Assembly: GCF_030528405.1 (NCBI RefSeq)
Contig: NZ_JAUMYY010000002.1
Span: 1 to 64,000, forward strand
DNA from: Fusobacterium sp.
GTDB taxonomy: Bacteria; Fusobacteriota; Fusobacteriia; Fusobacteriales; Fusobacteriaceae
DNA length: 64,000 nt
Direction of reading: 5' to 3'
Of the stretch, positions 5,909 to 60,041 are shown in pieces. The position numbers and the translations under genes are program-made. Position 1 is the stretch's first letter. Every line of letters starts with the position of its first letter. The notes under the pieces are model-generated. The model was not told the DNA's origin. It ran no database searches and was given only the letters and a program-made list of their open reading frames with translations.

Positions 5909-6865
5909 ATGGACTGGACAGGTCGTGTAGACGGTTATGATGAAGATGTATTAAGAGTACATCAAGTTGTAAAAGTAAAGACATTAAAAGAACTATTAGA
6001 AGATGATTCAAAAGATAGAAAGGTGTGTTTTGTAAGTTTTAACTCTGATGAAGGAATTAGGAGAAATAATGGAAGGACAGGAGCAAGTGAGGGTTGGAAG
6101 CATTTAAAAGCTGCACTTTCAAATTATCCTGTTTTTGATAATACTTTAAAGTTATATGATTTAAAGGAGTCTATAGATGTAATATCCGGTAATTTAGAAG
6201 CAGCTCAAGAAAAATTAGCTGATACGGTTGCAGAACTAAAGAAAAGGAATTATTTTGTAGTATGCTTGGGTGGTGGGCATGATATAGCTTATGGAACACA
6301 TAATGGAATTTTAAAATATGCAAAATCAAAAGAAAAAAATCCAAAAATAGGAATAATAAATTTTGATGCTCATTTTGATATGAGGGATTACAAAGAAAAA
6401 GGTGCTAATTCAGGCTCAATGTTCTTACAAATTGCAGAGGATAGAGAAAAAGACGGATTGAGATTTGATTATAATGTAATTGGAATACAAAAATTCTCAA
6501 ATACTAAAAGATTATTTGATACAGCTAAGAGATTCGGAGTAAACTATTTTCTGGCAAGGGACATAGAAAAAGTAAATGAACTTAATATAAATCCAATTTT
6601 AAATAGAAATGACTATATACATTTAAGTATTTGTACAGATGTGTTTCACGTAACTACTGCACCTGGAGTAAGTGCTCCTCAGTCATTTGGTATTTGGCCA
6701 AGTCAAGCTAATAGGCTTCTAAACATTATTGCTCAAACTGATAAAGATTTAACGCTTGAAGTGGCAGAAATAAGCCCTAGATATGACTATGATGATAGGA
6801 CTTCAAGATTGGTTGCCAATTTTATTTATCAAATAATTTTAAGGTATTTTAAAGTTGAAATTTAA
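5909..6865 (+). CDS. hutG: Formimidoylglutamase-like ureohydrolase (HutG type)
   Basis: Arginase-superfamily manganese hydrolase expected to split N-formimino-L-glutamate to glutamate and formamide, the last step of one histidine degradation route. The 318-aa protein shows GGGHDIAYG (Mn-binding His), DAHFDMR (Asp, His, Asp) and the APGVSAPQ motif typical of HutG rather than arginase. The usual Asp-x-Asp metal pair before APGVSAP reads Cys-Thr-Asp, so one canonical ligand is replaced by Cys. It has its own promoter and an AGAAGGAG ribosome site. No other hut gene is near. The alternative is another ureohydrolase of this superfamily; HutG is favoured by the N-terminal DEGIRRNNGRTGASEG block. 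Confidence 0.85.
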   Translation: MDWTGRVDGYDEDVLRVHQVVKVKTLKELLEDDSKDRKVCFVSFNSDEGIRRNNGRTGASEGWKHLKAALSNYPVFDNTLKLYDLKESIDVISGNLEAAQEKLADTVAELKKRNYFVVCLGGGHDIAYGTHNGILKYAKSKEKNPKIGIINFDAHFDMRDYKEKGANSGSMFLQIAEDREKDGLRFDYNVIGIQKFSNTKRLFDTAKRFGVNYFLARDIEKVNELNINPILNRNDYIHLSICTDVFHVTTAPGVSAPQSFGIWPSQANRLLNIIAQTDKDLTLEVAEISPRYDYDDRTSRLVANFIYQIILRYFKVEI

Positions 6866-7663: not shown

Positions 7664-7699
7664 AATAGTTCCAGAAAATAAAATCTGGGACTATTTTTT
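7664..7699 (+). terminator. Intrinsic terminator
   Basis: Near-perfect 12-bp inverted repeat (7664-7675 with 7684-7695) followed by T6. It closes the hutG-secreted protein unit before the lipid cluster. Confidence 0.85.
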
Positions 7700-7718
7700 G
7701 TATAGCAATTAGTTTTAG

Positions 7719-7747
7719 TTGTATGCGATAAAAATATATAGTAAAAT
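7719..7747 (+). promoter_or_regulatory. Candidate promoter of the lipid/glycolipid cluster
   Basis: TTGTAT at 7719-7724, 17-base spacer, TAAAAT at 7742-7747, located 34 bases before the first gene of the cluster and just after a terminator. The -35 box is a poor match, so this is a moderate prediction. Confidence 0.5.
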
Positions 7748-7780
7748 AACTTCAGTAACTTTATTTAAAGGTGATATATT

Positions 7781-8551
7781 ATGTCAGTAGTTTTAATAAC
7801 TGGAGCAAGTTCTGGAATTGGAAAGGAATTAGCCTATTTTTTTGCAAAAAGAAATTATAACTTAATTTTACTTGCAAGGAATACTCAAAAATTATTAGAG
7901 ATTAAAGATAGCATTGAAAAAAAATTTAATATTGCTTGTAAAATAATAAGCTATGATTTAAAAAATACTGAAAATTTAGAAAAAATAGTTGAAGAGAATA
8001 ATTTTGATATTTTAATAAATTGTGCCGCCTTTGGAGAAATGACAAATTTTGATAATTTAACTCTAGAAAAAGATATTGAGATGTTAAATGTAAATTTGAT
8101 TAGTCCAATTATACTTACAAAATTATTTTTAAAAAAAGCTCTTGAAAGAGATGAGGGAACAGTTATGAATATCTGTTCGACGGCAGCACTGTATTATCAC
8201 CCATATATGACTATGTACAGTACAACTAAGGCGGGGCTTCTTAATTACTCTTTATCTTTAAGTGAAGAAATAAGATTTAGAACTAAGAATGTGCACTTAC
8301 TTTCAATTTGTCCTGGTCCAACTGCAACTCCTTTTTTTGAAGAGGAAACAAAGGCAAAGTTTGGAGTATTTAAAGTCTGGGAGATGTCAGCAGAATCTGT
8401 TGCAAAAGATATTTTAAGAGTTTTTGATAAAAAGAAAAGATTTGCAATAATAGGTCTGAGAAATAAAATTTTAGCAAAGTTTACAGCAATGTTGCCTATA
8501 AGTTTGCAACTTAAGGTAGTTGCCAGACATCTTAGAAAAGGTGCTAAATAA
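7781..8551 (+). CDS. Short-chain dehydrogenase, first gene of lipid-type cluster
   Basis: Classical SDR (256 aa) of the DltE/YqjQ-like subgroup: TGASSGIG at residues 7-14, NCAA in place of NNAG at 80-83, Ser133 and Tyr146/Lys150 in YSTTK. It probably reduces a keto group or oxidises an alcohol on a lipid-like substrate with NAD(P)H; the C terminus (KFTAMLPISLQLKVVARHLR) is basic and hydrophobic and may contact the membrane. The following glycosyltransferase gene begins 9 bases after its stop. All seven genes to 14387 are contiguous on one strand. Confidence 0.88.
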   Translation: MSVVLITGASSGIGKELAYFFAKRNYNLILLARNTQKLLEIKDSIEKKFNIACKIISYDLKNTENLEKIVEENNFDILINCAAFGEMTNFDNLTLEKDIEMLNVNLISPIILTKLFLKKALERDEGTVMNICSTAALYYHPYMTMYSTTKAGLLNYSLSLSEEIRFRTKNVHLLSICPGPTATPFFEEETKAKFGVFKVWEMSAESVAKDILRVFDKKKRFAIIGLRNKILAKFTAMLPISLQLKVVARHLRKGAK

Positions 8552-8560
8552 AGGAGTATT

Positions 8561-9715
8561 ATGAAGATAATTTTTTATTTTATTCTCTCTTCCATTTTTT
8601 TAATATTTTTATTAAGACTTATTCTGTCTTTAAAATATTTTAAAAAATTTAACAGTTTTCCTAAAAAGACTTTGGATGAAACTAAATATACAATTGTTCA
8701 ACCAATTCTTTCAGGAGATCCAAGACTGGAAGAAGACTTGAGAGAGAATCTTAAAAATATAGAAGCTATGAAATTTATTTGGCTTATTGATAAAAGCGAT
8801 ATGGAGGCTCAAAGAATTTCAAAGGAAATATTAAAAGAAGACTTGTATGCTAAGAGGATTAAAGTACTTGAGATAGATGATGTTCCACAAGAAATCAACC
8901 CTAAAACTTTTAAATTAAACTTTGCCTTAAATCATATAGAAAGTGAGTATACAATTATTCTGGATGATGACAGTGTAATAGATACAAAATATTTACATGA
9001 ACTTGCTAACTATGAAGATGAAGAAGAGTATTTAGCAACAGGTATAGCCTATAATTATGGAAATAAAAACATTTATTCCAAATTACTTGCAGCTTTTGTC
9101 AACAGTAATTCATTTTTAACTTACTTTACTATGGCAGAACTTAAGGAAAATAAGAGTATAAATGGTATGTTTTATATACTTAGAACGGGAATTTTGAGAA
9201 AATATAATGCTTTTGAAGAAATAAAATATTATTTATGTGATGATTTGGCACTTGCAAGTCTTATGCTTGAGAAGGATGTTAAACTTATTCAAACTCGTAT
9301 TTTTTGTAATGTAAGAACAAGTATAGCAAATTTTAAAAAATATATACTGCAGATGAAAAGATGGTTACTTTTTTCAAAAATATATATGATGAAAAATTTC
9401 TCGTTTAAATTTTTTATATTTATACTGCTACCTACAATTTTACCAATAATAATGCTACTAAGTAGTGTAATTTTAGGGGTAAATTACTTGTTATTGACAG
9501 CTCTCATATTTTTTGTCAAATCTTTTATTATGTATTTTTATCGATACTATATATTAAAAACAGGGGATGAATTATCTTCTATTTTATATGAATTTTTAAA
9601 TGATTTAATATTACCACTGATATTTGTATATACACTTACAACAGCTCCAGTTATAACTTGGAGAAATAAAAAAATAAGAGTACTGGATGGAAAAATTCGT
9701 TATGAGCAGATTTAA
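8561..9715 (+). CDS. Membrane glycosyltransferase, ceramide-glucosyltransferase-like (GT21)
   Basis: The 384-aa protein starts with a membrane helix (residues 4-24), has a GT-A catalytic domain and ends with three to four membrane helices (about 275-365). All parts of the GT21 D1-D2-D3-(Q/R)xxRW pattern are visible: Asp77/80, DDDS at 135-138, CDDLA at 226-230 and QMKRW at 264-268. Known GT21 enzymes transfer glucose from UDP-glucose to ceramide or similar long-chain alcohols at the cytosolic membrane face. Here, beside a ketoacyl synthase and reductases, the acceptor is likely the lipid made by the cluster. The exact donor and acceptor are inferred, not shown. Confidence 0.85.
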   Translation: MKIIFYFILSSIFLIFLLRLILSLKYFKKFNSFPKKTLDETKYTIVQPILSGDPRLEEDLRENLKNIEAMKFIWLIDKSDMEAQRISKEILKEDLYAKRIKVLEIDDVPQEINPKTFKLNFALNHIESEYTIILDDDSVIDTKYLHELANYEDEEEYLATGIAYNYGNKNIYSKLLAAFVNSNSFLTYFTMAELKENKSINGMFYILRTGILRKYNAFEEIKYYLCDDLALASLMLEKDVKLIQTRIFCNVRTSIANFKKYILQMKRWLLFSKIYMMKNFSFKFFIFILLPTILPIIMLLSSVILGVNYLLLTALIFFVKSFIMYFYRYYILKTGDELSSILYEFLNDLILPLIFVYTLTTAPVITWRNKKIRVLDGKIRYEQI

Positions 9716-10358
9716 AAAATATTTAGAACAATTAAAAAAATTAGACATTAAAAATAGCTTTTTTAATATATATCAGACTTCTGAAAAGGTCGTTATGATA
9801 TTAAGTGGGAGTAGTTGTTATGAAACGGCAGCTCTTTCAGAAGAACAAAAAGAATTTTTGTCCATATTTAAAAAATACGGTTATGATATAGTTGAATCAA
9901 ATTTTCCATATAATTTAGCTTTTCCTTATAAAAATTATGTTGATGAGAATTTAATAAAGGCAAGTTATGTCACAGCAATTTACTATATCCATACTTTAAA
10001 AAATAGAGAATTTCAAAATCAGATAAAAAAGCATCTAGAGGGGATTTTTAAATTAAAGAAGGTAATTATCATTACACAGAGTTCAGGACTCAATGTACTG
10101 AATAGATTCTTAGATTTTTTTGAAGAAGAAGATTTTAAAGCTACAGATATAAAAGTTTTTTCTTTAGGACCTGTTGCAAAAGAAACTAAAAAATTAAAAA
10201 TGCTAGACTATACTATAATTAAAGGAAAATACGATGAATACAGCAGAGGACTGGATTGTCATAAGACAGATGTATGGCTTAAGTGTAGGCATTTAGGCTA
10301 TTTAAAAAATAAAGAACTCTTAAAATATATAGAGGAATATTTGGAGGACAATTTGTAA
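9702..10358 (+). CDS. Putative serine hydrolase (alpha/beta-hydrolase-like)
   Basis: A 218-aa protein without a family I can name with certainty. A hydrophobic strand KKVIIIT (119-125) runs directly into TQSSG (125-129), which has the geometry of an alpha/beta-hydrolase nucleophile elbow (small-x-Ser-x-small) with Ser127 as candidate nucleophile; an earlier strand VVMILSGSS (30-38) would be the oxyanion strand. A thioesterase or deacylase role on a cluster intermediate would fit. The gene overlaps the glycosyltransferase end; ATG at 9702 is preferred over 9687 by spacing to GGATGG. It is followed 35 bases later by the epimerase-like gene. Confidence 0.6.
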   Translation: MSRFKKYLEQLKKLDIKNSFFNIYQTSEKVVMILSGSSCYETAALSEEQKEFLSIFKKYGYDIVESNFPYNLAFPYKNYVDENLIKASYVTAIYYIHTLKNREFQNQIKKHLEGIFKLKKVIIITQSSGLNVLNRFLDFFEEEDFKATDIKVFSLGPVAKETKKLKMLDYTIIKGKYDEYSRGLDCHKTDVWLKCRHLGYLKNKELLKYIEEYLEDNL

Positions 10359-10393
10359 AATTTATTGATATAAAAATAAAAAAAGGTGATAAA

Positions 10394-11371
10394 ATGAAGA
10401 TTCTAATAACAGGAGCAACAGGTTTTTTAGGTAAATATACTATTCAGGAATTAGAAGAAAATAATTATGAAATAGTTGCATTTGGGAGAAATGAAAAAAT
10501 AGGAAAATCTCTGCTAAGTAAAAGAGTAAGTTTTTTTAAAGGAGATTTTACAAAGATTGAGGATTTATATGAAGCTGCAGAAAATGTGGATATGATAGTT
10601 CATGCGGGAGCACTTTCAACTATTTGGGGAAGATGGGAAGATTTCTATAATACAAATGTACTCGGGACGGAAAATGTACTTGAAGTTTGTAGAAAAAAGA
10701 GAATAAAGAGATTAGTTTATATATCTTCACCAAGTATTTATGCCGATGCCAAAGATCAAATCAACATAAAAGAAGAGGAAGCCCCTCTGGAAAATGAGCT
10801 AAATTTTTATATAAAAAGTAAGATTTTAGCTGAAAAGAAAGTAAAAGAATACTCGGATGTAAACACAGTTATCTTAAGACCAAGGGGAATTTTTGGAATA
10901 GGCGATACCAGTATTATTCCAAGACTTCTAAAATTAAATCAGGAAAAAGCCATACCACTTTTTGATAATGGAGAAAATAAGGTGGATATAAGCTGTGTTG
11001 AAAATGTTGCTCTAGCTATCAGGCTTGCTTTAGAGAGTGAAAAGGCAGTAGGAAATGTCTATAATATAACAAATGATGAGCCTATAGTTTTTAAAGAAAT
11101 ATTGGATTTATTTTTTTCTGAAATGAATATTAAAGGAAACTACAAACATTTAAACTATAACTTTATGAAAATTATAGTAAGTCTTTTAGAAAAAATTTAT
11201 AAAATTTTTAAAATAAAAAAAGAACCGATTTTAACTAAGTATACTCTTTATCTTTTAAAATATTCTCAAACATTGTCTATTGAAAAAGCAAAGAGAGATT
11301 TAGACTATAAGCCAAAAATAAGCATAATTGAAGGGATAAAAAAATATGTTGAATACAATAAAGGAAAGTAA
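10394..11371 (+). CDS. NAD-dependent epimerase/3-beta-hydroxysteroid-dehydrogenase-like reductase
   Basis: Extended SDR protein (325 aa) with GATGFLG at residues 7-13, the VHAGA block near 69-73, catalytic Ser near 111-113 and Tyr139-x3-Lys143. This subgroup includes 3-beta-HSD-like enzymes and OleD, which reduces 2-alkyl-3-ketoacids in olefin synthesis. In this cluster a reduction of the ketoacyl synthase product is the simplest role. The C terminus overlaps the next gene by 26 bases, implying coupled translation. Confidence 0.85.
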   Translation: MKILITGATGFLGKYTIQELEENNYEIVAFGRNEKIGKSLLSKRVSFFKGDFTKIEDLYEAAENVDMIVHAGALSTIWGRWEDFYNTNVLGTENVLEVCRKKRIKRLVYISSPSIYADAKDQINIKEEEAPLENELNFYIKSKILAEKKVKEYSDVNTVILRPRGIFGIGDTSIIPRLLKLNQEKAIPLFDNGENKVDISCVENVALAIRLALESEKAVGNVYNITNDEPIVFKEILDLFFSEMNIKGNYKHLNYNFMKIIVSLLEKIYKIFKIKKEPILTKYTLYLLKYSQTLSIEKAKRDLDYKPKISIIEGIKKYVEYNKGK

Positions 11372-12185
11372 AGAACAATCTTTAATAGAGAGTGTTGATT
11401 ATTTTTCCTGTGGTTACTGTATAAATAAAATAGAGAATATTTTTTCTGAGGTAAAAAAGGAAAAAATAATATTTGAAGCTGGAGTTTTTTTAATAAAACA
11501 TAGAAAATATGGCTATATACTTTATGATACAGGTTATAGTACAAAAATTTTAAAAAATAAAGCTAAATATTTTCTATATAGATTTTTGAATCCTATAAAT
11601 ATAAAAAAAGAAGCTATGATAAATTTTCAACTTGAAAAACGAGGGATAAAAACCAAAGAGATAAAGTATATAATTTTGTCTCATCTTCATCCAGATCATA
11701 TAGGTGGTTTAGAATTTTTTCCTCAGTCAAAAATAATTATTACTCAAAAATGTTTTGACGACTTAGAAAAAAGTACACTTCGTTCATTGATATTTAAAGA
11801 GTTATTGCCAAAGGATTTTAAAGACAGGCTAAAAGTTATAGAATCTTTTACTGAGAATAAAAACTTTAAATATTTAAAAAGCTATGATTTGTTTTCTGAC
11901 GAGAGTATACTTCTAACAGAATTAGATGGGCACTCATCTGGACAGTGCTGTGCTTATATAAAGGATAGGAATTTATTTATTGCAGCAGATGCTACATGGA
12001 GGACGGAATTTTTAGATATGGTAGATAAGATGAAGCTTCTGCCTAGGTTAATACAAAATAACTTTTCAGAATATAAAAAGAGTATAGATATTTTAAAAGA
12101 GATTCAAAATGATGGAATAAAAATTCTTGTTAGCCACGATAAATCAATCAGGGCGTGGAAGGTGTTAAATGAAAAAAATATTTAA
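11346..12185 (+). CDS. Metallo-beta-lactamase-fold hydrolase
   Basis: The 279-aa protein carries the dinuclear zinc motif HLHPDHIGG with His113, His115, Asp117 and His118, a later His in GHSSGQCC, Asp in AADATW and His in VSHDK, i.e. the complete ligand set of lactonase/thioesterase-type MBL proteins. It begins with an unusual Cys-containing block DYFSCGYC. The start at 11346 lies inside the end of the preceding gene and has GAAGGGA just upstream. A thioester or lactone hydrolase role in the cluster is inferred. The next gene overlaps its end by 17 bases. Confidence 0.85.
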   Translation: MLNTIKESKEQSLIESVDYFSCGYCINKIENIFSEVKKEKIIFEAGVFLIKHRKYGYILYDTGYSTKILKNKAKYFLYRFLNPINIKKEAMINFQLEKRGIKTKEIKYIILSHLHPDHIGGLEFFPQSKIIITQKCFDDLEKSTLRSLIFKELLPKDFKDRLKVIESFTENKNFKYLKSYDLFSDESILLTELDGHSSGQCCAYIKDRNLFIAADATWRTEFLDMVDKMKLLPRLIQNNFSEYKKSIDILKEIQNDGIKILVSHDKSIRAWKVLNEKNI

Positions 12186-13461
12186 ATTAATTTCCGTATT
12201 TATAAAAGTACGTTTTTTTGATAAATGGGATAGTCGTGAGAAAATAGAGAAATACCAAAATAAAATGTTAAAAAGACAGATGGAATTTTTTAGAAATAAC
12301 TCACCGTATTTTAAGGCGGGAAAATTTAAAGAAAATGCTTCTATGAATAAAGAATTTATGATGGAAAATTTTGATGAGTTGAATACTGTTGGTATTAAGA
12401 AAGCTGAGGCCTTTAAAATTGCTATAGAAGCTGAACAAAATAGAGATTTCAAAGATAAATATAAAAACATATCAGTTGGACTTTCTTCAGGGACATCAGG
12501 CCACAGAGGACTTTTTATTACAACAGAAGAAGAACAGGCTATTTGGGCGGGGACTATACTTGCAAAAATGTTACCAAAGGGTTTTCAGAAACATAGATTG
12601 GCATTTTTTCTAAGAGCAAACAATAACTTATATAGCTCAGTAAACTCTTCCTTTATAAAACTTGAGTATTTTGATACTTTTCTAAATCCTAGTGGACATA
12701 TAGAAAAATTAAATAATTATGCACCAACCATATTAATTGCACCTTCTTCAATATTAATTATACTTGGAAAATTTAAAGAAGAAGGTTTATTAAATATTAA
12801 CCCGAAAAAAATAATTTCAGTTGCAGAAATTTTAGAGGATAGGGATAAAGAATACATAAAAAAATGCTTTTCAGTAAATGTAGTTCATCAAGTTTATCAG
12901 GCAACGGAAGGCTTTTTAGCTTATACCTGTGAATATGGTAATTTACATTTAAATGAAGATATTATAAAATTTGAAAAAGATTATATTGATGAGAGAAGAT
13001 TCTATCCTATAATTACTGATTTTAAAAGAAGTAGTCAACCCTTTGTAAAATATCATTTAAATGATATTTTGGTAGAAACGAATGAAAGTTGTAGCTGTGG
13101 TTCTAAATTGCAAAGAATAGAAAAGATAGAAGGACGCTCTGATGATATTTTTAAATTTTATAATGATAAAGGGGAGATTATAAATATTTTTCCCGATTTT
13201 ATAAGAAGGTGTATGCTTTTTATTGAAGGTATAAGAGAATATCAAGTTTTTCAAACTGATTATAATAAGATAGAAGTGGCTGTTTTAGATATAGAGCAGT
13301 TGCAAAAAGAAAAAATAAAAAAAGAATTTAAAAAACTCTTTAAAAATTTTAGAATAAAGAATGTAGAAATTAATTTTATAAGTTATAATATTGATAGTAA
13401 GGTTAAACTAAAAAGGATTATAAATAAAAGCAACTTAAGAAAAAGAGATGAGGAAGTATGA
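12169..13461 (+). CDS. Adenylate-forming (F390 synthetase/PaaK-like) enzyme
   Basis: A 430-aa member of the small adenylate-forming enzymes that activate a carboxylic acid as acyl-AMP. It has the phosphate-binding loop SSGTSGHRG at residues 106-114, the core YQATEGFLAYTCEYG and the hinge region EGRSDDIF. The family is the F390-synthetase-related group (I recall TIGR02304) whose members typically sit beside ketoacyl synthase III and hydrolase genes, as here; the true substrate has not been established to my knowledge. A fatty acid is likely. The start overlaps the MBL gene, with GGAAGG nearby; its stop overlaps the next start by four bases (ATGA). Confidence 0.85.
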   Translation: MKKIFKLISVFIKVRFFDKWDSREKIEKYQNKMLKRQMEFFRNNSPYFKAGKFKENASMNKEFMMENFDELNTVGIKKAEAFKIAIEAEQNRDFKDKYKNISVGLSSGTSGHRGLFITTEEEQAIWAGTILAKMLPKGFQKHRLAFFLRANNNLYSSVNSSFIKLEYFDTFLNPSGHIEKLNNYAPTILIAPSSILIILGKFKEEGLLNINPKKIISVAEILEDRDKEYIKKCFSVNVVHQVYQATEGFLAYTCEYGNLHLNEDIIKFEKDYIDERRFYPIITDFKRSSQPFVKYHLNDILVETNESCSCGSKLQRIEKIEGRSDDIFKFYNDKGEIINIFPDFIRRCMLFIEGIREYQVFQTDYNKIEVAVLDIEQLQKEKIKKEFKKLFKNFRIKNVEINFISYNIDSKVKLKRIINKSNLRKRDEEV

Positions 13462-14387
13462 GAAAAATAAAAATAAGTGGCTATGGAATGAGCCTACCTA
13501 AAAATATTGTAAATTTTAATGGACAGATTCGCTATAGAATAAGTGGAGATGAAAATCAACTTTCACTTGCAGTTAGTGCATGTAAAAAAGCACTTATCTC
13601 AGCAAAAAAAGAAATTGAAGATATTGATTGTATAGTTTCAGCTAGTGCAGTAGGAATACAGCCTATTCCATGTAGTGCTGCCTTAATTCATGAAAAAATA
13701 GCAAAAGGATCAGATATTCCTGCACTTGATATAAATACAACTTGTACAAGCTTTATAACTGCACTTGACTTGATGTCTTATCTAATTGATGCAGGAAGAT
13801 ATAAAAATGTATTAATAGTTTCTAGTGATGTGAGTTCCCAAGCTTTAAATTCTAAACAAAAAGAAAGTTATGAACTTTTTAGTGATGGTGCAACGGCTTT
13901 TATAATATCGGCTACAGAAGAAGAGGAAGGAATTATTTGTTCTTTACAAAAAACTTGGTCGGAAGGAGTCCATGCGACGGAAATTAGAGGAGGACTTTCT
14001 GCTTATCTTCCAAAAAATTATACTGAGGCTACAAAAGAAGAATATATGTTTGATATGAATGGAAGAGATGTTTTATCATTATCAATAAAAAAATTACCAA
14101 AAATGATGGATGAATTTTTAAATAAAAATAATTTAAAAATCACAGATATAGATATGGTCATTCCACATCAGGCAAGTGTTGCTATGCCGATGGTAATGTC
14201 AAAATTAAACATAGAAGAAGAGAAATATCTTAACTTTGTTTCAGAATATGGAAATATGGTGTCCGCCTCTGTGCCTATGACTTTATGCCTGGCGCTTGAT
14301 GAAAAGAAAATTAAAAAAGGCGATAAAATATTTTTAATTGGAACTGCAGCAGGACTAACGACAAATATGTTATATATGAAAGTTTAA
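13458..14387 (+). CDS. 3-oxoacyl-ACP synthase III-like condensing enzyme
   Basis: Thiolase-fold condensing enzyme (309 aa) of the FabH/OleA group with a full catalytic triad: Cys96 in NTTCTSF, His237 in IPHQAS and Asn266 in YGNMVSAS, and the C-terminal GTAAGLTTN. It should catalyse decarboxylative or head-to-head Claisen condensation between acyl thioesters. Its location at the end of an operon with an acyl-activating enzyme, two reductases and a glycosyltransferase, and far from the other fab genes, argues against the housekeeping FabH role and for a dedicated lipid product. Upstream overlap of four bases indicates coupling. Confidence 0.9.
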   Translation: MRKIKISGYGMSLPKNIVNFNGQIRYRISGDENQLSLAVSACKKALISAKKEIEDIDCIVSASAVGIQPIPCSAALIHEKIAKGSDIPALDINTTCTSFITALDLMSYLIDAGRYKNVLIVSSDVSSQALNSKQKESYELFSDGATAFIISATEEEEGIICSLQKTWSEGVHATEIRGGLSAYLPKNYTEATKEEYMFDMNGRDVLSLSIKKLPKMMDEFLNKNNLKITDIDMVIPHQASVAMPMVMSKLNIEEEKYLNFVSEYGNMVSASVPMTLCLALDEKKIKKGDKIFLIGTAAGLTTNMLYMKV

Positions 14388-14412: not shown

Positions 14413-15135
14413 ATGAAAAAATTTGTATTTTCCACATTAACTGTGCTTTTTTTTACTGTGTTTTCTTTTAACATAATGGCACAAATTAAAGAAAAAGATG
14501 TAACAGAACTTGTTTTTATCTTAGATAGATCAGGTTCTATGGCAGGACTTGAAAATGAAACAATTGGAGGTTTTAATTCGATTCTTGAAAAACAGAGAAA
14601 AGAAACTAGAGGCTCTGTCATTGTAACAACAGTTTTATTTGATAATGAATATGAAATATTACATAACAGACTTCCTATTGATGAGGTTAAAAAGATTACA
14701 AATGAAGAATATTATGTTAGAGGTATGACAGCTCTCTTAGATGCAATAGGAAAATCGATAGTTAACTTAAAAGAAATTAATAAAAGTAAAAAAAATAAAG
14801 ATAGCAAGGTTTTATTTGTAATAATAACTGATGGTATGGAGAATGCAAGCAAAGAGTTTACTATAGCTAAAGTAAAGGAGTTGGTGGAACTTCAAAAAAA
14901 AGAATTTAAATGGGAATTTTTATTTTTAGGAGCGAATATAGATGCAATACAAACTGCAAAAAGCTTTGGTATTGATGCTTCAAAAGCTGTTCAATATCAC
15001 TCTGATAAAATAGGGACTGAAAAAAACTATAGAGTTTTGAATGAGGCAGTAAGTGAGTTTAGATCGGGAAAAGAATTGAATGCTGAATGGAAAAAAGAAA
15101 TAGAAACAGATTTTAAAGAAAGAAAACAACAATAA
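14413..15135 (+). CDS. Exported von Willebrand factor A domain protein
   Basis: Signal peptide (residues 1-23, ending ...FNIMA), then a VWA domain with an intact MIDAS: DRSGS (Asp38, Ser40, Ser42), the Thr in RGMTALLDA and the Asp in IITDGMENAS. Metal-dependent adhesion or protein-protein binding in the periplasm or outside is expected. Total 240 aa. It begins 26 bases after the ketoacyl synthase with a good AAGGAGGAG site, so it may be transcribed with the cluster although the function appears unrelated. Confidence 0.88.
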   Translation: MKKFVFSTLTVLFFTVFSFNIMAQIKEKDVTELVFILDRSGSMAGLENETIGGFNSILEKQRKETRGSVIVTTVLFDNEYEILHNRLPIDEVKKITNEEYYVRGMTALLDAIGKSIVNLKEINKSKKNKDSKVLFVIITDGMENASKEFTIAKVKELVELQKKEFKWEFLFLGANIDAIQTAKSFGIDASKAVQYHSDKIGTEKNYRVLNEAVSEFRSGKELNAEWKKEIETDFKERKQQ

Positions 15136-15639: not shown

Positions 15640-16551
15640 ATGAAGCCTGAATTAAAAAAAAATATTTCACTTATAGGAGTACCTCTTGATTTGGGAGCAA
15701 GTTTAAGAGGGGCAAATTTAGGTCCAGATGCCATTAGATATGCAGGAATAAAAAAGAGGTTGGAAGCTATTGGGTATAAAGTTAAAGATGAGGGAGATAT
15801 ACTTGTTAAAAGAGAAGAAGCTTTTACTGTTTTAGGTTCAAATTTAAAAAATATGAATGTTGTTGTAGATGTAAATAAAAAACTTTGCGAAAAAGTAGAT
15901 CAAGTTATGAAAAAAGGTAGTTTACCTGTTGTTCTTGGTGGTGATCATAGTATTGCACTTGGTACAATAAAAGGAGTTTTACACAATGTAAAGAAACTAG
16001 GTATTATTTGGTTTGATGCACATGGAGATATTAACACCAATGAAACTACTCCAACAGGAAATATTCACGGAATGCCTGTTGCAAGTTTAATGGGACTTGG
16101 TGCAAAGGATCTAAAAGAAGTAGGTGGAGAAGAATATAAAATAGATAAAGCTAACTTTGTTTATATTGGTTCAAGAGATTTAGATGCACCTGAGCGTAAA
16201 ATGATGAAAGAGCTTGGAATGAATGTTTTTACTATGCATGAAATAGATAAAATAGGAATAGTAGCTGTAATGGAAGAAGCTCTTCGTATTGCAACAGATG
16301 GAACAGATGGAATACATGTGAGTTTTGATATGGATGTATTAGATCCAGAAATTGCACCAGGAACAGGGACAAAGATAAAAGGTGGCATGACTTATCGTGA
16401 GGCACATTTATCCATGGAAATGATTGCCAAAAGTGAAAAGCTTGTAAGTGTAGAATTTGTAGAAGTAAATCCATTACTTGATCATGAGAATATGACAGGA
16501 AAAGAGGCAGTAGCTCTTGCAGGTTCTTTGCTTGGCGAATGGTTAATATAG
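15640..16551 (+). CDS. rocF: Arginase
   Basis: Hydrolyses L-arginine to ornithine and urea. All six manganese ligands are present: His in GGDHSIALG, Asp126-His128-Asp130 in FDAHGDIN, and Asp230/Asp232 in SFDMDVLDP; the substrate-binding TGNIHGMPVASL and the C-terminal VEFVEVNP glutamate are also there. 303 aa matches Bacillus RocF-type arginases. It has its own ribosome site (AAAGGGAGG) and terminator. It is the intact reference for the degenerate arginase-fold domain of the fusion protein at 32084. Confidence 0.95.
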   Translation: MKPELKKNISLIGVPLDLGASLRGANLGPDAIRYAGIKKRLEAIGYKVKDEGDILVKREEAFTVLGSNLKNMNVVVDVNKKLCEKVDQVMKKGSLPVVLGGDHSIALGTIKGVLHNVKKLGIIWFDAHGDINTNETTPTGNIHGMPVASLMGLGAKDLKEVGGEEYKIDKANFVYIGSRDLDAPERKMMKELGMNVFTMHEIDKIGIVAVMEEALRIATDGTDGIHVSFDMDVLDPEIAPGTGTKIKGGMTYREAHLSMEMIAKSEKLVSVEFVEVNPLLDHENMTGKEAVALAGSLLGEWLI

Positions 16552-57480: not shown

Positions 57481-58200
57481 TTGTTAAGAGAAGATGGAAG
57501 AAAACTAGAGCAGGAAAGGGAAATTAAAATAATAAAAGATATAAATATATATGCTGAAGGTTCAGTATTAATAGAAGCAGGTAATACAAAAATAATTTGT
57601 ACGGCCTCAGTTTCAGATAAGGTTCCACAATTTATAAGAGGAACAGGAAAGGGATGGGTAACAGCTGAGTACTCTATGTTACCAAGAGCTACGAATGAAA
57701 GAAATCAAAGAGAGGCAAGTAAGGGGAAACTTACAGGAAGAACTGTAGAAATTCAAAGACTTATAGGAAGAGCTTTGAGATCCTCAATAGATTTAGAAAA
57801 ACTAGGAGAAAGATTAATAACAATAGATTGTGATGTACTTCAAGCAGATGGAGGAACAAGGACTACATCTATAACAGGAGGATTTGTAGCTTTGGCACTT
57901 GCTGTTAAGAGATTAATTCAAGAAGGATTTATATTAGAAAATCCAATAATTTCAAATGTTGCTGCTATAAGTGTTGGAAAAGTAAATGGAGAATTATTAT
58001 CTGACTTAAAATATAGTGAAGATTTTGAGGCTGAAGTTGATATGAATATAATAATGAATAAAAATGGAGAATTTATAGAAGTTCAAGGTACTGGAGAGGA
58101 GAGTACTTATACAAGGAAGGAGCTTAATGCTCTATTGGATTTAGCAGAAAATAGTATTAAAAGAATAATTGCTTTACAGGATAAGATATTGGGAGAGTAG
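57481..58200 (+). CDS. rph: Ribonuclease PH
   Basis: Phosphorolytic 3'-5' exoribonuclease trimming tRNA 3' ends. 239 aa; the block AEGSVLIEAGNTKIICTASV, YSMLPRATNERNQREASKG and DCDVLQADGGTRTTSITG are diagnostic. TTG start at 57481 behind AAGGAAG. Operon with rdgB (1-base gap), the common bacterial arrangement. Confidence 0.95.
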   Translation: MLREDGRKLEQEREIKIIKDINIYAEGSVLIEAGNTKIICTASVSDKVPQFIRGTGKGWVTAEYSMLPRATNERNQREASKGKLTGRTVEIQRLIGRALRSSIDLEKLGERLITIDCDVLQADGGTRTTSITGGFVALALAVKRLIQEGFILENPIISNVAAISVGKVNGELLSDLKYSEDFEAEVDMNIIMNKNGEFIEVQGTGEESTYTRKELNALLDLAENSIKRIIALQDKILGE

Positions 58201-58201
58201 A

Positions 58202-58786
58202 ATGAAAATATTTTTAGCTACAGGAAATAAACATAAAATAGATGAAATAAAGGATATTTTTTCAGATATAAGAGGAATAGAAATTTTGTCAATAAAAGAT
58301 GGTTTTGATATTCCAGATGTAATTGAAGATGGAAAAACTTTTGAAGAAAATTCTCAAAAAAAAGCATTAGAAATCGCCAAGTTTTTAAATATCATAACTA
58401 TAGCTGATGATTCTGGTTTATGTGTAGAAAGTTTAAATGGAGAACCAGGAGTATACTCTGCAAGATACAGTGAAGAGGGAACAGATAAGGAAAATAATAA
58501 AAAGTTAATCAAAAATCTTCAAGGAATAGAGAATAGAAAAGCTAAATTTATTTCAGTTATAAGCTTAGCAAAGCCAAATGGAGAAATTTATTCATTTTCG
58601 GGTGAAATTCATGGAAAGGTAATAGACGAAGCAAAAGGAGAGACGGGATTTGGCTATGATCCACATTTTTATATTGAAAAATATAATAAAACTCTCGCAG
58701 AAATGCCTGAAATAAAAAATAAAATAAGTCATAGAGCTAAAGCTTTAGAAAAACTAAAAGAAAATTTAGAAAATATATTATTTTGA
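58202..58786 (+). CDS. rdgB: XTP/dITP diphosphatase (RdgB/HAM1)
   Basis: Cleans non-canonical purine nucleotides (dITP, XTP) from the pool. 194 aa with ATGNKHKIDEI, IADDSGLCVESLNGEPGVYSARYS and the GFGYDPHFYI block. Start ATG 58202 follows the rph stop by one base; the frame is open earlier but lies within rph. Confidence 0.95.
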   Translation: MKIFLATGNKHKIDEIKDIFSDIRGIEILSIKDGFDIPDVIEDGKTFEENSQKKALEIAKFLNIITIADDSGLCVESLNGEPGVYSARYSEEGTDKENNKKLIKNLQGIENRKAKFISVISLAKPNGEIYSFSGEIHGKVIDEAKGETGFGYDPHFYIEKYNKTLAEMPEIKNKISHRAKALEKLKENLENILF

Positions 58787-58798
58787 TTTTTAAAATTA

Positions 58799-58827
58799 TT
58801 GACTTATGAATAAATTTTATGTAAAAT
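58799..58827 (+). promoter_or_regulatory. Promoter for the small secreted FMN-bind-like protein
   Basis: TTGACT at 58799-58804, 17-base spacer, TAAAAT at 58822-58827, 33 bases before the start. Confidence 0.75.
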
Positions 58828-58860
58828 AAATATACATAAAACTTAGGGAGGTTGATAAAA

Positions 58861-59256
58861 ATGAAAAAATTTTTATTTGGTTTATTTCTTTTAAGTTCTG
58901 TTGCAGCTCTAGCAGGACAATATACTGATGGTACATATAGAGGTCTTTATATTTCAAGACAAGAAACTGAAGTTGAAATTCAATTTGATCTAAAAGATGA
59001 TGTTATAACTAAAGCAACTTTCAGAGTTTTGAATTATAAAGGTCATGACTGGTTAAAAGAAGATGAATTTGTGGCTAAAAATAAAGGTTATTTAAAAACT
59101 CTTGAAGAAATAACAGGAAAAAAAATTCAAGATGTATTACCTACATTGTATAATGAAAAAGAAATTGAAACAGCTGGTGCAACTGTAAGAAAAGGTAAAA
59201 TTAGAGCAGCTTTACAATATGGATTAAATTTAGGACCATATAGATTAGCAAAATAA
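58861..59256 (+). CDS. Small exported protein with FMN-bind-like fold
   Basis: 131 aa: signal peptide (MKKFLFGLFLLSSVAALA) then YTDGTYRGLYI and TAGATVRKGKIRAALQYGLN, which match the start and end of the FMN_bind domain (DGTYxG ... SGATxT ... AVxxAL). The residue that accepts FMN in the SGATS/T motif cannot be confirmed: here it reads AGATV, lacking the final Ser/Thr. It may therefore bind flavin non-covalently or not at all. Start chosen by AGGGAGG nine bases upstream. Confidence 0.6.
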   Translation: MKKFLFGLFLLSSVAALAGQYTDGTYRGLYISRQETEVEIQFDLKDDVITKATFRVLNYKGHDWLKEDEFVAKNKGYLKTLEEITGKKIQDVLPTLYNEKEIETAGATVRKGKIRAALQYGLNLGPYRLAK

Positions 59257-59266
59257 TAAAAAATAA

Positions 59267-59343: not shown

Positions 59344-59419
59344 TGGAGCGGGAAACGAGGCTCGAACTCGCGACATTAACCTTGGCAAGGTTACACTCTA
59401 CCAACTGAGTTATTCCCGC
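59344..59419 (-). tRNA. tRNA-Gly (GCC)
   Basis: Full cloverleaf on the minus strand with acceptor GCGGGAA, anticodon loop reading TT-GCC-AA, T arm TTCGA and encoded CCA. Last tRNA of the operon. Confidence 0.95.
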
Positions 59420-59440
59420 ATAATATTATATTAATTAAAA

Positions 59441-59524
59441 TGGTGCGGAGAGAGAGACTTGAACTCTCACGTCTGGGACACTAGATCCTAAGTCTAGCGC
59501 GTCTGCCAATTCCGCCATCCCCGC
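59441..59524 (-). tRNA. tRNA-Leu (TAG)
   Basis: 84 bases with the long variable arm of class II tRNA, anticodon TAG in the loop CT-TAG-GA and encoded CCA. Confidence 0.95.
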
Positions 59525-59542
59525 AGAATAAATTATATAAAA

Positions 59543-59618
<76 letters not shown>

Positions 59619-59622
59619 TTAA

Positions 59623-59699
59623 TGGCGGGAGTGACGAGGCTCGAACTCGCGACCTCCTGCGTGACAGGCAGGCGCTCTAACCAACTGAGCTACACCCCC
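59623..59699 (-). tRNA. tRNA-Asp (GTC)
   Basis: Cloverleaf with acceptor GGGGGTG (one G-U pair), loop CT-GTC-AC and encoded CCA. Confidence 0.95.
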
Positions 59700-59710
59700 A
59701 GAATTTTTTA

Positions 59711-59786
59711 TGGTGGTCGCAATAGGACTTGAACCTATGACCCCCTGCTTGTAAGGCAGGTGCTCTCCCAGCTGAGCTATGCGACC
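59711..59786 (-). tRNA. tRNA-Val (TAC)
   Basis: Cloverleaf with acceptor GGTCGCA, loop CT-TAC-AA and encoded CCA. Confidence 0.95.
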
Positions 59787-59792
59787 AAATGA

Positions 59793-59867
59793 TGGTACCC
59801 CGTAGGGGAATCGAACCCCTGTTTCCAGAGTGAAAATCTGATGTCCTAACCACTGAACGAACGGGGC
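59793..59867 (-). tRNA. tRNA-Glu (TTC)
   Basis: Cloverleaf with acceptor GCCCCGT, loop TT-TTC-AC and encoded CCA. Confidence 0.95.
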
Positions 59868-59876
59868 AGAAACTAA

Positions 59877-59952
59877 TGGTGCGTCATACAGGATTCGAAC
59901 CTGTGACCACCTGATTAAGAGTCAGATGCTCTACCAACTGAGCTAATGACGC
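59877..59952 (-). tRNA. tRNA-Lys (CTT)
   Basis: Cloverleaf with acceptor GCGTCAT, loop CT-CTT-AA and encoded CCA. The CTT isoacceptor for AAG codons. Confidence 0.93.
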
Positions 59953-59963
59953 ATAATTTTTAA

Positions 59964-60041
<78 letters not shown>

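Follow-up and report, generated by a model that had tools for sequence, protein, structure and literature searches.

In the OleA-OleB-OleC-OleD pathway to olefins or beta-lactones, the condensing enzyme OleA requires a glutamate supplied by the partner subunit (E117), as does PpyS (E105), and MxnB and CorB carry a valine (Val94) at the position of OleA Glu117 (PMC4578411). The latter two belong to the myxopyronin and corallopyronin pathways, where they act at the end of modular polyketide synthase (PKS) lines and form an alpha-pyrone. The Pseudomonas quinolone signal (PQS) pathway (PqsA, PqsD, PqsBC, PqsE) combines an adenylating enzyme, a beta-ketoacyl-acyl carrier protein synthase III (KAS III) and a metallo-beta-lactamase (MBL)-fold protein. 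The NCBIfam family TIGR02304 ('F390 synthetase-related protein') is without assigned function. Here we describe a seven-gene operon on the plus strand (7781-14387) of a 64,000-nucleotide stretch of Fusobacterium sp. (contig NZ_JAUMYY010000002.1, positions 1 to 64,000; hereafter the window). It encodes, in this order, a short-chain dehydrogenase/reductase (SDR), a GT21-like glycosyltransferase, a small alpha/beta-hydrolase, an OleD-like reductase, an MBL-fold hydrolase, an adenylate-forming enzyme of family TIGR02304 and a KAS III. The last four form a core that recurs in other phyla, and the main advance is that TIGR02304 is tied to this mobile four-gene core, which is also present in Escherichia coli.

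The operon resembles each of the described systems in part. It shares with OleABCD a condensing enzyme, an OleD-type reductase and an ANL-superfamily enzyme, but it is without the OleA glutamate and OleB, its adenylating enzyme belongs to another family, and it contains an extra MBL hydrolase and glycosyltransferases. Its KAS III is sister to MxnB and CorB, with the catalytic triad intact and a hydrophobic residue (Ile70) where they have Val94, but the operon is without a PKS and has a reductase, an MBL hydrolase and an adenylating enzyme. The logic of adenylating enzyme, KAS III and MBL protein is that of the PQS pathway, but the operon adds reductases and glycosyltransferases, PqsD and PqsC are distant, and PqsE was not among the MBL matches listed. 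The glycosyltransferase has Pfam GT21 and the D1-D2-D3-(Q/R)xxRW motif in common with ceramide glucosyltransferase and HpnI, but no ceramide or hopanoid genes were seen in the operon and the HpnI cut-off was missed. All the enzyme families are known, and the set as a whole belongs to none of the pathways tested; in our judgement it follows a Claisen-fusion/OleD logic with a KAS III clade of its own. Searches of open-licence papers for F390-synthetase-related proteins, for TIGR02304, for glycolipids of Fusobacterium and for the genes next to the E. coli core returned no description of the cassette. A 2009 paper (PMC2649909) reports an F390-synthetase/phenylacetyl-CoA-ligase-like gene in the fatty-acid clusters of D. 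psychrophila and an anammox bacterium, and no link from that gene to this cassette was seen there.

A four-gene core within and beyond the Fusobacteriota

We surveyed 98 Fusobacteriota genomes for the genes of the operon. TIGR02304 scored above its cut-off in 14 of them, and all 14 loci carry the four core genes together. The GT21 gene was found in 11 genomes and the small hydrolase in eight, both only inside cassette loci (a marginal, broken hydrolase match in G040, E = 5e-4, was set aside). The gene order recurs in several genera. In family f4, which we read as Leptotrichiaceae-type, the usual order is SDR-GT21-hydrolase-GT1-OleD-MBL-F390-KASIII. The additional eighth gene, GT1, encodes a second glycosyltransferase (EryCIII/GT28 C-terminal type); it is present in most f4 copies and absent from the window genome, from its sister G017 and from the record L007. 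Homologues of GT1 also occur outside the cassette (G066:C21:37376-38623 and G081:C1:1650396-1651652), one genome being without TIGR02304.

Loci that are more distant depart from this arrangement. Those of G046, G088 and G090 are without the hydrolase, that of G065 is without SDR, GT21 and hydrolase, and that of G045 has an AMP-binding/carrier multidomain protein in place of the sugar genes. This 957-residue protein (L039:4260-7133) has a condensation-like N-terminal part with no Pfam call, and the variant suggests that the core may feed peptide-type chemistry too. In G070 (L027:4611-6255) the GT21 gene has an in-frame stop and the hydrolase open reading frame (ORF) is shortened, which would fit a sugar module that is possibly decaying there.

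A first-pass annotation of the window had proposed one biosynthetic operon of seven tightly packed genes with a lipid logic, and the ORFs, the families and the recurrence in relatives agree with this. Scattering of homologues in related genomes, which it had named as evidence to the contrary, did not occur among the 98 genomes. It had overlooked the spread of the core outside the Fusobacteriota and the eighth gene of most f4 copies. All seven ORFs of the window are intact and have invariant catalytic residues (the comparison drew on as many as 28 sequences of several phyla; for GT21 and SDR, on sequences within Fusobacteriota). The seven genes almost certainly have a joint function.

Sampling beyond the Fusobacteriota covered a plasmid collection and E. 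coli genomes, and the core was found also in Bacillota and Pseudomonadota. In E. coli, KASIII-OleD-MBL-F390 is present in 674 of 5,426 complete genomes (about 12%), including urinary isolates and LF82; it lies between narI and purU and is followed by genes for a PAP2 protein, a fatty acid hydroxylase and a fatty acid desaturase. The core keeps this order in Pontibacillus and Paenibacillus, which have an ATP-grasp gene inserted in it, in Paraburkholderia and Shinella, which carry it with ATP-grasp and GNAT-annotated genes, in Paracoccus and Ketogulonicigenium, where it lies beside a sulfotransferase gene, and on a Pseudomonas plasmid. The order in Lachnospiraceae ACC2 is OleD-MBL-F390-KASIII-GT1. 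On a plasmid of Pseudomonas amygdali a lone TIGR02304-type match has no other core gene annotated within 10 kb. Each lineage adds its own tailoring genes to the core. A single-protein scan of genome contigs found one relative only, and a query with an alignment would reach further.

The pairwise distances of the core proteins correlate at r = 0.925-0.953, with none of 2000 permutations as high. Part of this correlation reflects shared descent, and its strength is as expected of four genes that co-evolve and travel together. Fusobacteriota, about 12% of complete E. coli genomes and soil and marine bacteria thus share a conserved pathway to which no function has been assigned, and through the copy in E. 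coli its product can be studied directly in tractable strains. Two E. coli records deserve mention in their own right. In LF82 (L048:4501-11382) a seven-gene operon occupies the narI-purU interval and adjoins rtT/tyrT, and a 385-kb 'plasmid' (L002, NZ_CP141085.1) carries nar, purU, hns and adhE and is evidently a chromosomal stretch.

The window operon matches every other cassette locus examined, but its flanks have no counterpart among theirs. In L007 (NZ_CP084075.1), a record that bears the label Fusobacterium vincentii pSB055A, the flanks are nearest to G017 (84%), which is of the window's own genus, but the operon is 80-83% identical to the f4 copies and only 75-77% identical to the G017 operon. 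Because the flanks differ from those of the other copies, the operon is a horizontally mobile block. Its G+C content does not set it apart from its neighbours, so no donor of other base composition is evident. The L007 record is a 2.1-Mb labelled plasmid, and both its label and its plasmid status look doubtful. Elsewhere in the window, the minus strand holds eight tRNA genes at 59344-60039, and the adjacent DNA (57652-59259) matches DNA downstream of the L007 cassette.

Enzymes of the core and of the glycosylation module

We compared the profile of the cassette KAS III family with solved structures. The best matches were MxnB (315 bits), CorB (304) and a FabH (260), ahead of E. coli FabH (217), PqsD (168), PqsC (119) and OleA (113). 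In a tree built without true OleA sequences, the cassette KAS IIIs of several phyla form one clade (support 96/90) that is sister to MxnB/CorB, and the two together split from FabH at 100/100. The Cys96-His237-Asn266 triad is conserved and, as in MxnB/CorB, there is no glutamate base. The residue aligned to the OleA glutamate, a position that we checked, is Ile70. Because isoleucine stands at the glutamate position of OleA and PpyS, the enzyme does not work by the OleA mechanism; together with the scores and the tree, this led us to reject its identification as OleA and to abandon the earlier label of an 'OleA-like' synthase. The nearest precedent is a fusion, of the MxnB/CorB kind, with a beta-ketoacyl partner that is already acidic.

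The KAS III is not the housekeeping FabH either. The window genome encodes a separate FabH (G000:C71) that is 31% identical to it and falls in a different clade, and an ordinary FabH is encoded elsewhere in nearly every one of the 98 Fusobacteriota genomes. When compared to FabH, about 18 residues near the N-terminus are missing in the f1 and f4 Fusobacteriota copies and in those of Lachnospiraceae, the subclade to which the window enzyme belongs. The N-terminal region of FabH binds part of coenzyme A. The shortening hints at a changed donor, because the missing residues sit where FabH makes this contact.

As proposed in the first-pass annotation, the reductase is of OleD or 3-beta-hydroxysteroid dehydrogenase (3beta-HSD) type: OleD is its best NCBIfam model, albeit with 210 bits against a cut-off of 580 that is not reached, and Ser111-Tyr139-Lys143 is invariant across phyla. 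The MBL hydrolase (AlphaFold2 model, pLDDT 90.5) has almost exclusively N-acyl-homoserine-lactone lactonases and pyridoxolactonases among its top Foldseek matches. Its fold and metal ligands fit a lactonase, but it reaches no cut-off of the curated quorum-quenching lactonase equivalogs (AttM, AiiA and others), scoring 72.5 bits with AttM against 390. The adenylate-forming enzyme is a full TIGR02304 member (588.2 bits, cut-off 251.9) and matches a PaaK-type ligase (4r1l, E = 5e-11). It had been called OleC-like; it belongs instead to this PaaK-like equivalog family, and OleB is missing. The earlier comparison of the condensing, acyl-activating and reducing enzymes with OleA, OleC and OleD is supported for the OleD-type reductase, and not supported for the other two.

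Three further enzymes make up the Fusobacteriota-type module. The best NCBIfam matches of the SDR are SDRs, among them mycolate_SDR (115 bits, cut-off 380), and a mycolate-type logic was discarded on this score. The glycosyltransferase exceeds the PF13506 cut-off (75.9 against 21.7 bits) and has all the motif residues (DDD135-137, CDD226-228, Q264xxR267W268), in agreement with its first description as a GT21-like enzyme; it resembles ceramide glucosyltransferase. With HpnI it scores 49.7 bits, below the cut-off of 310, and a hopanoid HpnI/HpnA logic was dismissed as both models lie well under their cut-offs. The small hydrolase (223 residues) matches no Pfam or NCBIfam family. Its AlphaFold2 model (pLDDT 81.6) shows a minimal lipase/cutinase-type alpha/beta fold, with Foldseek matches to B. 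subtilis lipase, feruloyl esterase and cutinase (E = 6e-4 to 1e-3), and SSG 132-134, an Asp and a His are invariant, which makes 'serine-hydrolase-like' a reasonable label.

Proposed pathway and its alternatives

From the gene set, its families and intact catalytic residues, its conservation as a unit, its mobility and the ancestry of its KAS III, we infer an order of steps, substrates and a glycolipid product. First, KAS III would join two acyl thioesters into a two-chain keto product. One partner is probably a beta-ketoacyl chain; its alpha-carbon is acidic and does not require a glutamate base. The product would be released possibly as a lactone/pyrone or a thioester. The lactonase-like MBL would hydrolyse the lactone or thioester to the free acid, the OleD-like reductase would convert the beta-keto group to a hydroxyl, and the PaaK-like adenylating enzyme would re-activate the acid for transfer. 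In the window genome, the SDR would then reduce a further carbonyl, as a second keto or aldehyde reduction. GT21 would act at the membrane and glycosylate a hydroxyl in the manner of ceramide glucosyltransferase, and the alpha/beta-hydrolase would trim or transfer an ester. In most relatives, the GT1-type enzyme would add another sugar.

A lipid-type product of some kind is quite probable, and the lipid-acting accessory genes beside the E. coli core (FA_hydroxylase, FA_desaturase, PAP2) count in its favour. As for the complete scheme, in which the mobile core and the glycosylation module would make a two-chain, sphingolipid-mimicking glycolipid, we hold the case to be evenly balanced. If true, it would mean an additional lipid class in these membranes, which could bear on host recognition. 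The first-pass annotation had suggested a glycosylated long-chain alcohol instead of an alkene; its lipid logic and the GT21 are supported, and a glycolipid is the presumed product class. More tentatively, the core may represent a cross-phylum class of two-chain lipid pathway that leads to sphingolipid mimics without serine palmitoyltransferase. Its products would be decorated by lineage, with two sugars in Fusobacteriota, by hydroxylation, desaturation and dephosphorylation in E. coli, and possibly with amino or sulfo groups elsewhere.

Several observations weigh against the two-chain glycolipid. The operon has no acyl carrier protein gene, and plain malonyl extension by the KAS III would also fit. 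MxnB and CorB are only distant kin (the sister branch is about 1 change per column), so the substrate class of the cassette KAS III need not match theirs. The only structures matched by GT21 are of ceramide glucosyltransferase, and weakly (E = 0.016), the hydrolase fold finds matches of modest quality (TM about 0.45), and the roles given to SDR and hydrolase are guesses. The ATP-grasp, acetyltransferase-like and NRPS-like (non-ribosomal peptide synthetase) neighbours in other lineages show that sugar is not a fixed companion of the core.

The strongest alternative, although unlikely, is a single-chain glycolipid. A specialised FabH would extend one acyl chain with malonyl-ACP, the MBL would free the product as a thioesterase, and the reductases would give a beta-hydroxy acid or a long-chain alcohol for activation and glycosylation. 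The Cys-His-Asn triad is of FabH type, a FabH is the third-best structural match, MBL thioesterases such as PqsE exist, and glycosyltransferase modules are present. However, the KAS III clade is fully separated from FabH and groups with enzymes that fuse two chains, and the core has a reductase of OleD type; OleD itself acts on 2-alkyl-3-oxo acids.

It is rather improbable that the operon makes a diffusible lipid-derived signal or antibiotic, pyrone- or quinolone-like, that is exported as a glycoside. The set of adenylating enzyme, KAS III and MBL parallels PqsA, PqsD-PqsBC and PqsE, the KAS III is sister to the enzymes that make antibiotic pyrones and has measurable scores with PqsD and PqsC, the MBL resembles quorum-quenching lactonases, and the patchy, mobile distribution fits specialised metabolites. 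Nevertheless, the conserved set comes without a receptor, exporter or resistance gene, and the membrane GT21 and the desaturase, hydroxylase and PAP2 neighbours in E. coli look lipid-directed.

An Ole-type olefin or beta-lactone pathway is very unlikely. OleD as the best NCBIfam model of the reductase speaks for it, as does the presence of a KAS III and of an ANL-superfamily enzyme, but the OleD cut-off is not reached, the KAS III has neither the OleA/PpyS glutamate (PMC4578411) nor a score with OleA near that with MxnB, OleB is missing, the adenylating enzyme is TIGR02304 and not OleC, and of the two hydrolases one is an MBL and the other has a lipase-like fold. The patchy distribution and the damaged GT21 and hydrolase genes of G070 could point to genes that are neighbours by chance, or to a decaying island with no joint function. 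This is hardly credible with intact ORFs in the window, and chance clustering is ruled out by conservation of the set and its order over several genera and of the core over phyla.

Layout and surroundings of the operon

Coordinates of the operon genes and of the upstream hairpin, with their supporting features
Feature	Positions	Strand	Supporting features
Terminator-like hairpin, just 5' of the operon	7664-7695	+	12 pairs, T tail
Classical SDR oxidoreductase	7781-8551	+	Pfam adh_short 1e-36; GxxxGIG, Ser133, Tyr146, Lys150
Membrane GT21-like glycosyltransferase, ceramide-glucosyltransferase/HpnI type	8561-9715	+	PF13506 3.5e-21
Small alpha/beta-hydrolase, lipase/cutinase-like	9687-10358	+	AlphaFold2 and Foldseek; invariant columns
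OleD/3beta-HSD-type reductase (extended SDR), core	10394-11371	+	PF01073/PF01370; Ser111, Tyr139, Lys143
MBL-fold hydrolase (Lactamase_B), lactonase-like, core	11346-12185	+	H113xH115xD117H118, H196, D215, H264
F390-synthetase-related adenylate-forming enzyme, PaaK-like, core	12169-13461	+	TIGR02304; SSGTSG, YQATEG, GRxDD, Lys413
KAS III (ACP_syn_III), MxnB/CorB-related, core	13458-14387	+	Cys96, His237, Asn266; Ile70

The seven ORFs are near-contiguous: 9 nt separate the first two and about 35 nt the third and fourth, the second and third share 29 nt, and the last three junctions overlap by 26, 17 and 4 nt. The true start of the hydrolase may lie about 18 nt downstream of the called one. The span of 7719-14387 given at first is right at its end, and its start lies upstream of the first ATG (7781). 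Similarly, the tight packing described then is correct, and an exact ATGA overlap exists only at the last junction (13458).

The hairpin upstream of the operon is predicted to isolate it from the preceding gene. The plus strand at 7696-7780 shows no consensus promoter, but in DNA so rich in A+T promoter scans are hardly informative (52 found, 45 expected). No plus-strand terminator was seen within the operon or ahead of the gene at 14413 that follows KAS III. Transcription may therefore continue into that gene, which has its own AGGAGG ribosome site. This gene (14413-15135), directly 3' of the operon, encodes a secreted-looking protein with a von Willebrand factor A-like start (FILDRSGSM) and no Pfam match at 1e-5. 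On both sides, the operon is flanked by arginase-family genes (5909-6865 and 15640-16551).

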